DNA of 64,000 nt from Parvibaculaceae bacterium PLY_AMNH_Bact1. GTDB lineage: Bacteria; Pseudomonadota; Alphaproteobacteria; Parvibaculales; Parvibaculaceae. The stretch is from contig CP126168.1 in assembly GCA_032881465.1 (NCBI GenBank), positions 1,550,001 through 1,614,000 of the forward strand, in the 5' to 3' direction. The notes under the pieces are model-generated. The model saw nothing but the letters and a program-made list of their open reading frames with translations, was not told where the DNA came from and did not search any database. Positions 6,789-22,519 of the stretch are shown here, one piece after another; the stretch's first letter is position 1; each line of letters starts with the position of its first letter. A program made the translations under genes and the position numbers.

Positions 6789-7526
6789 ATGGGAAAACCA
6801 GGCCAGAATATTAGCGCTGATGACCTGGTCATGATGAGTCCCCTCTTTTCGGTCTTGGCAGATGAGGCAAGGTCAGCCGTCGTGAAACGTGCGAAGCCTT
6901 TATCCCTTGAGGCTGGCGACCCCCTTTATGCACGCGGGGATCCCTCAGACCGCTACTTTGGCATCCTCAAAGGTCGGTTGCGCCTGTCAGTTGATTCAGC
7001 AGACGGAAAGACGGTCGCCCTTAACCAGGCTGATACGGGGGAGTGGTTCGGCGAGTTGGGATTGTTTGAGGGGGGCACCCGTCTGGTGGACGCGACAGCT
7101 GTCGAACCGACCGACCTTCTCTGTCTCAGCCGGACCGATGTGCTGGGATTTGCGATGAGTGAGCCCGCCATGTTTATGCCAATTGTTGAGCTTTTGGGCG
7201 CTCGAATCCAACTTGTGGGTGAGTTGCTTCAGGAAACGGTTTTTCATGATGTGACCTTTCGCCTTGCAAAGCGTTTGCTAGTTCTTGCGGACAAACACGG
7301 GCTCCCAGCCGATCAAGGCGTACTCATTGAGTTGCACCTTCCCCAAGAGGAGCTGGGTCAGATGGTCGGAGCAACGCGAGAGGCTGTTGGCCGCCAGCTC
7401 AGCATCTGGAAGAAGAAGGGCTGGATCGATGTCTCGTATGGAAAAATCACGATCCTGAACCGTGCACCGCTGATGCAGATAATTGTCTCAGCCCAAGGAG
7501 GCGCTGATGACGTCAGCGATTTTTGA
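6789..7526 (+). CDS. Crp/Fnr family transcriptional regulator
   Basis: DNA-binding regulator, 245 aa from the chosen start. A cyclic-nucleotide-binding-type beta roll covers residues about 15-130 (GELGLFEGGTRLVDATA is the phosphate-cassette region), followed by a long dimer helix and a winged HTH (QEELGQMVGATREAVGRQLSIWKKKGW). There is no N-terminal Cys cluster, so it is not an oxygen-sensing FNR. The recognition helix R-E-x-V-G-R is CRP-like rather than the E-x-x-S-R of FNR. ATG 6789 is preferred over ATG 6768 because GGGGAG stands just before it. The effector is unknown. Confidence 0.88.
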   Translation: MGKPGQNISADDLVMMSPLFSVLADEARSAVVKRAKPLSLEAGDPLYARGDPSDRYFGILKGRLRLSVDSADGKTVALNQADTGEWFGELGLFEGGTRLVDATAVEPTDLLCLSRTDVLGFAMSEPAMFMPIVELLGARIQLVGELLQETVFHDVTFRLAKRLLVLADKHGLPADQGVLIELHLPQEELGQMVGATREAVGRQLSIWKKKGWIDVSYGKITILNRAPLMQIIVSAQGGADDVSDF

Positions 7527-19559: not shown

Positions 19560-19669
19560 GAATTTCGGTGTCGCGTATATTGCGTGACACCTGCGCAGGA
19601 TCAAGGGTGTTGGGAGTGTTTCTGCAGATTGGTGTAGAATTGCTCAAACAAGTGGGGACAGGAGAGAAT

Positions 19670-20575
19670 ATGGGACCGAATCCGGCGCTCAAGAAACTTG
19701 GATTTTCCGAAACAGACCGCATGGTTCTGGTTCACACCGATGATATTGGCATGTGCCAAGCCTCTGTCAGTGCCTTTGCAGACTTGTGGCAAGCCGGAGC
19801 CATTTCCTGTGGTTCGGCTATGGTTCCTTGTGCTTGGTTCAATGCTGCAGCTGACTATTGCCGCGAACATCCTGAGGTAGACATGGGCGTTCATGCAACG
19901 CTGACCAGCGAATGGCATCCTTATCGCTGGGGACCCCTCACATCAGGCGCTGCGTCGGGTGGTCTCACCGACCACGAGGCAAAGTTCCCCAGGACGTCAG
20001 AAGCTGTTGCGGAATCGGCAGACCCGCAAGCAGTTAAAGCTGAGCTCAAAGCACAAATCGATCACGCCAAGGCTGCCGGCATTGAGCCAACTCATATCGA
20101 TACACATATGGGGTCGGTAATGCATGGCCCGCTCTACGACGTGTTCGTTGATCTTGCATTGGAATATGGCATCCCGCCGTTTGCGCTTCGTCTAACACCG
20201 GACCAATGGTCATTTGGGGGTTACTCTGAAGAGACTTGCGCACTTTTCGAGCGTCGCACACGCGAATTGGAAGATGCAGGTGTGCCCACGCTGGACCGGA
20301 TCCTAAACGTTCCTCTCTCTGATGAGGACGACCGGGCGGGTAAAACAAAACAGGCATTGAGTTCGATCAAACCTGGACAGATGAGTTATTTCATTTTGCA
20401 CCCAAGTCACGACACCGCAGAGTTACGGGGAATATGCCCTGACTGGCGGTCGCGGGTGCTGGACCTTGAAATCTTCTTAAGCGGAGAGATGGCGGAGCAT
20501 TTGGCGAAAGAAAACATTCATTTGATTGGATATCGCACGCTAAAAGGGCTTATTCCACAAGGGGTTGCCGCGTGA
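19670..20575 (+). CDS. ChbG/HpnK (YdjC) family deacetylase
   Basis: Polysaccharide-deacetylase-like protein, 301 aa. The metal site is visible: LVHTDDIGMCQ gives the Asp-Asp pair, and MGVHATLTSEW plus EPTHIDTHMG give the His ligands. The family includes diacetylchitobiose deacetylase ChbG and hopanoid HpnK; which sugar or lipid is deacetylated here is open. ATG 19670 is chosen because GGAGAG precedes it closely; the open frame to 19568 adds a stretch unlike the family. Confidence 0.85.
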   Translation: MGPNPALKKLGFSETDRMVLVHTDDIGMCQASVSAFADLWQAGAISCGSAMVPCAWFNAAADYCREHPEVDMGVHATLTSEWHPYRWGPLTSGAASGGLTDHEAKFPRTSEAVAESADPQAVKAELKAQIDHAKAAGIEPTHIDTHMGSVMHGPLYDVFVDLALEYGIPPFALRLTPDQWSFGGYSEETCALFERRTRELEDAGVPTLDRILNVPLSDEDDRAGKTKQALSSIKPGQMSYFILHPSHDTAELRGICPDWRSRVLDLEIFLSGEMAEHLAKENIHLIGYRTLKGLIPQGVAA

Positions 20576-20663
20576 TCTTAAGGCGGCTATCAAAAGCACC
20601 CGATTCACAGTAAAATCAAGTAATGCTGGGTATTGAAGGGCCCATTTCACAGGTACAGGCGTG

Positions 20664-20993
20664 ATGATCGACAGACAGGCAAAATTCCATATCGGGCAGA
20701 TTGTTCAGCATCGGTATTTCTCCTTTCGGGGGGTGATTTTCGACGTCGATCCAACCTTTAACAACACTGAGGAGTGGTGGCTGTCTATCCCTGAAGAAAT
20801 CCGGCCGCGCAAAGACCAGCCTTACTATCACCTGCTCGCGGAGAATTCAGAGTCTGAATATGTCGCCTATGTGTCGGAGCAGAACCTTTTGGAAGATGAG
20901 ACTGGTGATCCCGTTGGCCATTCAGATGTTCCCAAAATGTTTGGTCCCATGGAGGGCGGCATCTACACCCTAAGGGGTGAAGCGGCGCACTAA
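20664..20993 (+). CDS. hspQ: Heat shock protein HspQ
   Basis: Small YccV-domain protein of 109-110 aa. AKFHIGQIVQHRYFSFRGVIFDVDPTF and DQPYYHLLAENSESEYVAYVSEQNLL match HspQ almost along its full length. HspQ binds hemimethylated DNA in vitro and acts as a Lon protease specificity factor in enterobacteria. GTG 20661 directly before ATG 20664 is an equal start candidate. It stands between the deacetylase and an acyltransferase on the same strand. Confidence 0.92.
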   Translation: MIDRQAKFHIGQIVQHRYFSFRGVIFDVDPTFNNTEEWWLSIPEEIRPRKDQPYYHLLAENSESEYVAYVSEQNLLEDETGDPVGHSDVPKMFGPMEGGIYTLRGEAAH

Positions 20994-21043
20994 CGTAAAA
21001 GACCAACAGCGCCCGGCAGAAGGCGTCATAAAGGATACGGACC

Positions 21044-21766
21044 ATGCGGCGAGATGCCCGTCCCTATTTCATCCGCCGCGTGCGGGACGCATTTTCAAAA
21101 TGGCAAGTCCGCCATTTTCTTGAGCCTCAATTCGACAAGATTGGACACGGGCTGGATGTGGCATACCCGCGCGGCGTGGAATTGTGGGGTGCAAACATAT
21201 ATGCCGGAACGCATCTGCACCTCCGGGCGGCCAAGGGGAACATGATCCGTTTGGCCACCTGGGACAGCGGAGACCGTGTGGGCGAGATTCACATCGGCGA
21301 TTTTGTTCTGATAAGTCCAGGAAATCAGATCATCGCATCTGAGCGGATCACCATTGGCAGTAATACAATGATTGCCAGTGGTTGTTACATCTCCGATTCT
21401 GATTGGCACGATACCTATGACCGTACCGCCGAGCGAGATAAGTATGCGCCTGTGATTCTTGAGGAAAACGTCTGGATTGGTAGTCGAGTAATTGTCGGAA
21501 AAGGTGTCACGATTGGCAAAAATTCCATCGTCGGTGCCGGATCGGTTGTTACGCGGGACATTCCCGCAAACGTGATCGCTGCGGGCAATCCGGCCAAGGT
21601 GATTAAGGACCTGGATCCCAACAAAGACTTCCGTTTGCGCTCTGATATGTTGGGCGACAGCGACGCTCTCTATCACGAAATTGATCAACTGAGCCGTTAC
21701 TTGCTTCGCCACAACACGCTCTTTACCTGGATACGGAGCGTGATAAAGCCGACACGGCGCGATTGA
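21044..21766 (+). CDS. Hexapeptide-repeat acyltransferase (LbH family)
   Basis: Acyltransferase of the maltose/colanic-acid O-acetyltransferase type, 240 aa. The left-handed beta helix covers residues about 70-190, with the catalytic-loop His in SDSDWHDTYDRTAERD and the C-terminal coil VWIGSRVIVGKGVTIGKNSIVGAGSVVTRDIPANVIAAGNPAKVI. Likely O-acetylates a sugar of the cell surface. AAGGA lies 8-12 bases upstream of the start. I see no terminator behind it, so read-through toward 21870 is possible. Confidence 0.88.
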   Translation: MRRDARPYFIRRVRDAFSKWQVRHFLEPQFDKIGHGLDVAYPRGVELWGANIYAGTHLHLRAAKGNMIRLATWDSGDRVGEIHIGDFVLISPGNQIIASERITIGSNTMIASGCYISDSDWHDTYDRTAERDKYAPVILEENVWIGSRVIVGKGVTIGKNSIVGAGSVVTRDIPANVIAAGNPAKVIKDLDPNKDFRLRSDMLGDSDALYHEIDQLSRYLLRHNTLFTWIRSVIKPTRRD

Positions 21767-21801
21767 GTAGGCCCAGTTGGCCAGGGTTTGGTGGCCAGGA
21801 C

Positions 21802-21815
21802 TTGATCTGAATCAA
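21802..21815. promoter_or_regulatory. Perfect FNR/FixK-type box
   Basis: TTGATCTGAATCAA matches the FNR/FnrL/FixK consensus TTGAT-N4-ATCAA with no mismatch. It lies in the 103-base gap before a 34-codon gene, centred at 21808.5, which would place a class II start site near 21850. It suggests control by oxygen or nitrogen oxides. The FNR-type protein that would read it is not in this window. Confidence 0.7.
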
Positions 21816-21836
21816 TGAGCGCCCGGCATATTCGCG

Positions 21837-21869
21837 TTTTTGTCCTCCCAACAAATTGGAGGACAAAAA
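21837..21869 (+). promoter_or_regulatory. Perfect 12-bp inverted repeat covering a ribosome-binding site
   Basis: TTTTTGTCCTCC (21837-21848) and GGAGGACAAAAA (21858-21869) are exact reverse complements around a 9-nt loop. The 3' arm holds the GGAGGA ribosome-binding site of the gene whose ATG is the next base. The T-run is on the 5' arm and the A-run on the 3' arm, the reverse of a terminator on both strands. It may hide the site in RNA or act as a DNA operator. Confidence 0.7.
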
Positions 21870-21974
21870 ATGACCGACGCCGACTTTACTTACCTGATGA
21901 TTGTTGCAGGCGCTTTCAGCCTATTCATGCTCGTTCTTGGTTACTACATGTTCAGCGTACCGTCGCGCGACTGA
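21870..21974 (+). CDS. 34-residue single-helix membrane protein
   Basis: Not recognised. MTDADFTYLMIVAG starts a 34-residue protein with one transmembrane helix of about 20 residues (YLMIVAGAFSLFMLVLGYYM) and a short polar tail ending PSRD. GGAGGA lies 6 bases before the ATG, an ideal spacing. The FNR/FixK box upstream suggests a role in low oxygen, for example as a small subunit of a respiratory oxidase, but it is unlike CcoQ, CcoS or CydX as I know them. No respiratory gene is adjacent. Confidence 0.7.
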   Translation: MTDADFTYLMIVAGAFSLFMLVLGYYMFSVPSRD

Positions 21975-21985
21975 CCGCCTATAGG

Positions 21986-22519
21986 TTAACCTGGAGCTTG
22001 TTGGTCCAACCAATTGATTGCGGCCGTCATGCCAGACAGGCTGACATTGAGTGATACGGGGCCATTCCGGATATCGACAAAGTCTACGACCATATTGTTG
22101 CCCGCTTTGAGCCTCTGAAGGCTGTCGGCGGCGACAGGCGAAATTGACTGACAACCGATCGGGATACAAACCTGAAGCGGAATGGCAGCAAGCTCAGTAC
22201 CATCAACGCTGAATTTCACACCGTTGGGGAGATGTGTCCCCAGTGGCACAATCGTGATGGCGTAGTACTCGTTGTTGGGGTTCTTTCCCACTGCAAAGAA
22301 TAAGGCGACCGACTGGCTCTGTTCAGAGCGAATTTCGAAAGAAACAGTACAGATATTGTTCGTGCCGTCAGGGGACGCACATTTTCCGCGCCAGTTGCCG
22401 AACTTTTCCATCGTAGTGCCATCTGCAGCCGTGACGGTCTCAGCCTGCGCAGAGACCGAGTTACCCAAGAAAAACACAGCAACGATAAGCGCAGCTGCGA
22501 TACGCCTTAATTCAAACAT
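21986..22519 (-). CDS. Invasion-associated locus B (IalB) family protein
   Basis: Periplasmic protein of the IalB family, 177 aa, with a signal peptide (residues 6-26, cleavage near AQAE). FGNWRGKCASPDGTNNICTVSFEIRSEQSQ and PLQVCIPIGCQSI carry the two Cys pairs typical of the family in alphaproteobacteria. The molecular role is unknown outside Bartonella, where IalB is linked to erythrocyte invasion; here it is more likely a general envelope protein. Its 3' end is 11 bases from the small membrane-protein gene on the other strand. Confidence 0.85.
   Translation of the reverse strand: MFELRRIAAALIVAVFFLGNSVSAQAETVTAADGTTMEKFGNWRGKCASPDGTNNICTVSFEIRSEQSQSVALFFAVGKNPNNEYYAITIVPLGTHLPNGVKFSVDGTELAAIPLQVCIPIGCQSISPVAADSLQRLKAGNNMVVDFVDIRNGPVSLNVSLSGMTAAINWLDQQAPG

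Follow-up and report, generated by a model that had tools for sequence, protein, structure and literature searches.

By comparison of genomes, a 34-codon open reading frame (ORF) in a 64-kb window, by which we mean the whole stretch of DNA that was analyzed, was found to belong to a widespread, FNR-linked family of small proteins that apparently has no name, and this membership was the surprise of the analysis. The best explanation for the hairpin that covers its Shine-Dalgarno site is a start-site-dependent translation switch that insulates the small gene from read-through, a reading to which we give a probability of roughly 0.57. In the proposed mechanism, a lone gene for a small membrane protein would be turned on when oxygen is low, by a regulator of the FNR type (FnrL-like here) that acts on a class II promoter. 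Transcription starting at about position 21850, in the loop of the hairpin, would give an mRNA with a short, open leader that would be translated. Read-through RNA from the upstream acyltransferase gene would carry both arms, fold, and bury the Shine-Dalgarno site. The hairpin would thus insulate the protein from read-through and tie its translation to the FNR-made start.

The layout described by an earlier, sequence-only reading of this DNA (a mismatch-free box, a perfect 12-bp inverted repeat, an ATG at the next base, and 34 codons) was confirmed base for base. The FNR/FnrL/FixK-type box, TTGATCTGAATCAA, is located at 21802–21815 (centre 21808.5; strand unspecified). The 5′ arm of the hairpin, TTTTTGTCCTCC, spans 21837–21848 on the plus strand and overlaps TTTTGT at 21838–21843 (+), the predicted −10 hexamer of a class II FNR start. 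The loop, CAACAAATT, covers 21849–21857 and includes the predicted transcription start, an A at 21850 (+). The 3′ arm, GGAGGACAAAAA, at 21858–21869 (+), contains the Shine-Dalgarno sequence GGAGGA (21858–21863) and is followed directly by the small ORF, MTDADFTYLMIVAGAFSLFMLVLGYYMFSVPSRD, whose ATG is at 21870 and whose stop ends at 21974 (+). The same frame can also be listed from an upstream TTG, which gives 44 amino acids. The upstream, co-directional gene (21044–21766, +; Pfam Hexapep) encodes a hexapeptide acyltransferase and is the presumed source of the read-through RNA; its stop ends 35 bases before the FNR box, and no terminator-like site was found between this gene and the box. The next gene downstream, outside the unit, is convergent, belongs to the IalB family (21986–22519, −; Pfam IalB), and is syntenic in relatives. 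Across 19664–22519 of the window, genes for a YdjC-type deacetylase, HspQ, and the acyltransferase run co-directionally into the small gene, which the IalB gene faces.

Orthologues of the small ORF were found in all six sampled congeners, and in each the frame upstream is co-directional and the one downstream convergent. The sequence-only reading had named a lack of conservation of the 34-codon frame in related genomes among the outcomes that would count against it, and the frame is conserved. For the six pairs formed by the four closest genomes, pS was determined to be 0.42–0.72 per site vs a pN of 0.00–0.06, which indicates that the ORF is under purifying selection and is a real gene. The predicted structure of the protein is one helix of residues 3–29 with a mean pLDDT of 93.

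The curated family contains 78 members, the window gene included. A strongly hydrophobic stretch of 19 residues is present in all 78, and the charge before this stretch is lower than that after it in 68. Profile searches of alphaproteobacteria gave matches in 23 of 386 genomes (E ≤ 0.01), and further profile searches gave 51 of 387 (E ≤ 0.01, doubtful ones included) and 42 of 388 (E ≤ 1e-4); the three genome samples overlap. Searches around the matches returned 15 of 18 in one family, and 3 of 4, 4 of 4, and 13 of 15 in the remaining cases. Five named records were found, of which three are metagenome bins of Rhodobiaceae, one is a bin of Alphaproteobacteria, and one is “Alpha proteobacterium Mf 1.05b.01”. 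A search of plasmids yielded no named relatives and one weak match from Burkholderia. During curation, G010 was dropped for lack of a start codon, and G323, G187, and G407 were dropped for longer or doubtful frames. Weak matches (for example G014, G016, G021, G058, and G095) and second matches within a genome were left out, and the matches in G212, G445, G416, G397, G237, G114, G399, G447, and G467 and at a second place in G377 were not counted. Some weak matches were counted, namely G345 and G040 (E about 4e-3 for each), G263 (9.5e-4), G190, and G404.

The sequence-only reading could not place the protein in a known family, and the database searches gave the same outcome. No Pfam or NCBIfam model came near its cut-off for the window protein, for eight members scanned against Pfam, or for six scanned against NCBIfam, and no PDB chain was matched by a profile of 20 members. 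The sub-threshold matches to DUF6518 (12.9 bits of 25), to AGP and ISK_Channel (Pfam, family members), and to MtfM (16.9 of 37.5, NCBIfam) were taken as chance. Because the scanned members reached no Pfam or NCBIfam model, the family is probably unannotated in many genomes. Excerpts from papers on small ORFs of Sinorhizobium and Bradyrhizobium and from papers on FnrL/FixK regulons do not name it. According to the pertinent part of PMC2908626, a core FNR regulon includes an unnamed hypothetical protein (ID 2905), and several unnamed hypothetical proteins are likewise listed in part of PMC4634722. A search of the literature for an earlier report found none, which is not proof of absence. Judged by its sequences, this is apparently a widespread, undescribed, and unnamed alphaproteobacterial family of small one-helix proteins.

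The exact box occurs seven times in the 3.74-Mb genome, and the reversed control pattern occurs once per strand. With at most one mismatch, the box is present in seven of seven congeneric genomes. Within 55–125 nt upstream of the family members, an FNR-like box was found for 70 of 78 when up to two mismatches were allowed and for 59 of 78 when only one was allowed, vs 5 of 3900 shuffled upstream regions at the latter threshold. The eight members with no box are G009, G025, G159, G112, G444, G366, G173, and G405. In 57 of the 70 box-bearing members, the box begins at −80 to −64 relative to the ATG. Since the second search profile was built solely from box-bearing members or sequences closely related to the window gene, later matches recruited by the protein alone were counted separately; the third profile included members with no box, and in 23 of the 27 later matches found by protein alone the box has no more than one mismatch. 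The genome encodes one FnrL-like protein with Pfam Crp domains, for which the best NCBIfam model is FnrL (7.7e-51; 173 bits, below the model cut-off of 300); a CxxC-x7-C motif was read in it by eye. The proposal of FNR-type control is thus supported by comparison. The conserved TTGAT-N4-ATCAA box at an activating distance marks the gene as a candidate member of an FNR/FnrL/FixK regulon, and the genome has an FNR-type regulator, although the score of the latter lies under the equivalog cut-off. The switch would depend on binding of a regulator of this type to the box.

Some other boxes and regulators were noted. Another of the seven exact boxes precedes an OmpW gene, and OmpW appears on a core FNR regulon list in the relevant section of PMC2908626. 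Several of the exact boxes fall inside frames and may be there by chance. The box at G000:C1:2025196-2025209 (L168) lies just 5′ of a gene for a secreted-looking protein of 177 residues that contains cysteine and gave no Pfam match; the sequence of this box is also present in two congeners. The window itself holds a second HTH gene of the Crp/Fnr superfamily at 7260–7478 (+) (G000:C1:1557260-1557478), whose protein, as read, lacks the N-terminal cysteine cluster of the FnrL-like protein encoded elsewhere in the genome.

Among the 12 inverted-repeat pairs listed in the window (arms of at least 12, distance of at most 40), only 21837–21848/21858–21869 is 100% complementary. RNA of 21802–21880 is predicted to fold at −23.6 kcal/mol, vs a mean of −14.6 for its shuffles (z = −3.2; 0 of 200 as stable). 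RNA of 21850–21900 is predicted to be nearly unstructured, with −2.5 kcal/mol and a z of +0.3, and 115 of 200 shuffles were as stable. The predicted energy needed to open the Shine-Dalgarno site was 11.9 kcal/mol for the long RNA and 2.8 kcal/mol for the short RNA. Folding of both forms thus agrees with the sequence-only reading, in that the long RNA is predicted to close the site and RNA from 21850, which lacks the 5′ arm, to free it. When the arms of six congeners are aligned with one another, 66 of 72 cells are paired. Only 2 of the 720 permutations of the 3′ arms reach this value, the identity and one other, the latter probably an exchange between two genomes whose arms are identical. Both sides have changed among the congeners at pairs 1, 4, and 6. 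In the seventh congener (G006), a different stem is found that is interrupted at the Shine-Dalgarno site; its pairing test gave p = 0.010, and neither measure of the first shuffle test was significant for it. The Shine-Dalgarno site is predicted to be fully closed in four of seven congeners and partly open in G003 (0.20 unpaired), G005 (0.41), and G006 (0.50). Against dinucleotide shuffles, pairing was significant at p < 0.05 in five of seven congeners, and in six of seven when the test was repeated. In the genus, box and pairing are conserved together with the ORF, the pairing with compensatory change, and the comparison indicates that the hairpin is under selection in the genus. A search of Rfam with 21600–22100 returned two matches, both far under their gathering scores.

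The position 41.5 bases from the box centre is 21850, inside the loop, in agreement with the geometry that had been proposed. In 24 of the leaders of 59 members, a TAnnnT hexamer follows the box at a distance of 21, 22, or 23 nt, vs 0–3 leaders for each of the other offsets between 10 and 44 and a mean of 1.9 (maximum of 8 in 1000 rounds) for shuffled leaders at 21–23 nt. Class II spacing is accordingly borne out by comparison for that part of the family, and it is limited to 6 of 26 genera, from which all 24 of these leaders stem; this confinement led us to rate both the main explanation and the recurrence of hairpins discussed below lower. In the alignment of home-genus leaders (A4, seven congeners), nine columns are invariant, and four of these, T23, T24, T28, and A35, would be positions −12, −11, −7, and +1 of a class II promoter. 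A good −10 hexamer carries an A at its second base. The hexamer of the home genus is TTTTGT or similar, with no A at position 2, and is a poor one. The spacing and the invariant columns fit a predicted start at 21850.

If the hairpin blocks read-through, it would need to be stronger where read-through threatens, and the orientation of the upstream gene was therefore compared with the pairing of the leader. The test set comprised 62 genus-labeled members from 30 genera, each with a box 60–90 nt upstream. The segment from the box to about the predicted start was paired with the 18 nt that directly precede the ATG, and each leader was compared with its own dinucleotide shuffles. Significant pairing (p < 0.05) was found for 17 of the 62 leaders vs 3 of 46 neighboring genes at the same loci (Fisher p = 0.005); with the home genus removed, 12 of 55 leaders pair significantly (Fisher p = 0.03) and 43 do not. 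The hairpin is, on these counts, recurrent in the family and not universal. Arm sequences differ between families, with a 5′ arm located upstream of the hexamer in some members (G488, G353). In two leaders, L106 and L108 (G475 and G477), there is a 7-bp stem, GTTGCTG/CAGCAAC, with a 5′ arm that overlaps the predicted −10 hexamer and a 3′ arm that immediately precedes a weak Shine-Dalgarno site.

Of the 70 box-bearing members, 34 have an upstream co-directional gene whose end is no more than 130 nt from the ATG. Significant pairing was found for 13 of 30 leaders with such a gene vs 3 of 29 others (p = 0.002, from per-genome counts that ignore relatedness, the genomes not being independent). The p value was 0.06 when the test was averaged by genus and 0.04 per genome with the home genus removed. 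This test used 59 of the 62 leaders, those of G270, G040, and G473 having no called upstream gene; the gene calls were mechanical. The threshold of 130 nt was our choice, and six others give p values from 0.001 to 0.046. The cost of opening the Shine-Dalgarno site, long minus short RNA, averaged 5.0 kcal/mol for the 30 leaders with a close co-directional gene vs 2.1 kcal/mol for 32 others, the three leaders with no called upstream gene included (p = 0.0003). There are exceptions on both sides. G476, G189, and G533 pair significantly with no close co-directional gene, 17 of the 30 leaders with one do not, and G448, G485, G541, G591, G256, G314, and G489 have a z above 0 in spite of such a gene. 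The comparison is suggestive of stronger pairing behind a close co-directional gene.

Two other tests were also applied. A duplex test with a 3′ side of 24 nt was dropped because, in most home-genus leaders, its split fell within the 5′ arm so that they scored poorly, and its swap control mixed genomes of different G+C; it was replaced by the 18-nt side and dinucleotide shuffles. It gave 7 of 62 leaders at p < 0.05 and none at p < 0.01, and in a genus-weighted permutation 0 of 5000 rounds (1 of 5000 with the home genus removed). The first shuffle test of 43 leaders gave p < 0.05 for Shine-Dalgarno accessibility in 12 and for folding energy in 14; its combined p values take no account of relatedness, and the Shine-Dalgarno site was placed wrongly in a few leaders, those of G314 and G215 among them.

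These results bear on several other accounts of the hairpin. Only the FNR box and the ORF might be functional, with a pyrimidine-rich promoter that happens to face a purine-rich Shine-Dalgarno site and a pairing strengthened by chance in one genus. The many leaders outside the genus with no significant pairing (43/55) and the genus-level association of p = 0.06 are what this would predict, yet shuffles that keep the composition still leave five (on repeat six) of the seven congeners below 0.05, two-sided changes occur at three pairs, and neighboring genes show little excess (3/46), so we hold it to be unlikely. The hairpin could also be part of the main FNR-made mRNA, with a start upstream of 21837, and serve as a regulated switch, for instance as a thermometer or as a site on which a small RNA or a protein acts. 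A structure that is always in the mRNA would be conserved, as this hairpin is, and with so poor a −10 hexamer in its own genus the start could lie elsewhere. Against this stand the spacing in six other genera, the invariant promoter-like columns, and the A at +1, all of which indicate a start in the loop, together with the lack of an Rfam family near its gathering score and the variation of arm sequence and loop; we regard such a switch as distinctly improbable.

We give very little probability to a reading in which a second regulator binds the inverted repeat as a DNA operator that overlaps the −10 region. The perfect palindrome does span the promoter hexamer, but an operator would keep its letters, whereas here the arms change with pairing kept and the loop varies in length. 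The arms of distant members are, moreover, unrelated in sequence, and in some they lie upstream of the hexamer. Pairing that is kept while the letters of the arms change favors pairing of RNA over a DNA operator. The start-site switch, as first proposed from the DNA of the window, is left with the box, the conserved pairing, the class II geometry, and the predicted freeing of the site in its favor, and with a link to gene orientation that stands at p = 0.06 by genus. Read-through from the acyltransferase gene, the block to translation, and a benefit from silencing the protein when oxygen is present are steps that we infer.

A link to respiratory oxidases had also been suggested, and no support for it was found. 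For 30 locus–genome pairs, 58 neighboring genes were listed, and 30 proteins of 18 loci were scanned. These belong to diverse families of housekeeping type, with one FdhD/NarQ gene and no oxidase family among the 30. As the neighbors are diverse, the small gene seems to travel alone. Among these loci, a common context of an acyltransferase-type gene, the small gene, and IalB was found only in the home family and in family f116 (L077, G155), and an IalB neighbor is also present in genus g3 of family f1. CydX, CcoQ/FixQ, and CcoM are short, one-helix small subunits of oxidases that are controlled by low oxygen. The window protein resembles them in its length, its single predicted helix, and its putative low-oxygen control, but the window protein and the members scanned have no Pfam or NCBIfam match to these or other oxidase-subunit models, and the scanned neighbors include no oxidase. 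The member in G028 (L024), which is outside the 30 scanned proteins, ends tail-to-tail beside a gene that we take to be ccoS, for maturation of cbb3 oxidase; this was the only cbb3-related neighbor noticed.

The logic of the proposed switch is found in the transposase genes of IS10 and IS50, where fold-back of outside read-through RNA hides the ribosome-binding site and RNA started at the transposase promoter leaves it free; the sites in IS10 and IS50 are ends of mobile elements, whereas the gene in the window is taken to be a host gene. A further likeness is provided by e, soc, 49, and I-TevI of phage T4, in which a hairpin forms on early read-through RNA and late starts omit the 5′ arm. The sections of PMC2988022 and PMC3014915 on these genes describe the same kind of hairpin for segB, and for mobE of phage Aeh1, and for relatives of gene e they place the late promoter within the DNA from which the 5′ strand is transcribed. 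As for T4 e and I-TevI, the Shine-Dalgarno site of the small gene is predicted to be closed in a stable stem on a long RNA initiated upstream, and RNA from the adjacent promoter would lack the 5′ part of the stem. The T4 hairpins serve the timing of a phage through a late sigma factor, whereas here a chromosomal gene would respond to oxygen through an FNR-type activator, with a start site and read-through that we infer. By analogy, the small gene would work like the hairpins of T4 e, soc, and I-TevI. The promoter of pioABC in Rhodopseudomonas palustris, as given in part of PMC3050613, is an FnrL/FixK class II promoter with its box centred at −44.5. The small gene is similar in the type of box sequence and in its distance to the start, which is predicted here, but the pio leader is 177 nt long vs a predicted length of about 20 nt, and that part of the paper mentions no ribosome-site hairpin for pio.

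What would be new is a family of small proteins that is seemingly a frequent member of the FNR/FixK regulon in alphaproteobacteria, and a chromosomal gene that would license its translation through the start site itself, with signs of repeated origin. It is possible, and we offer it tentatively, that lineages in which the gene lies behind a co-directional gene have repeatedly evolved hairpins of unrelated sequence that are missing from RNA started by FNR, that cover the ribosome site on read-through RNA, and that thereby keep a low-oxygen membrane micro-protein found across the alphaproteobacteria strictly off in oxygen. If this is true, these hairpins would be a recurrent cellular counterpart of those of the T4 late genes, and the protein would seem to be costly or a switch by itself. 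The family offers a fresh entry into low-oxygen physiology.
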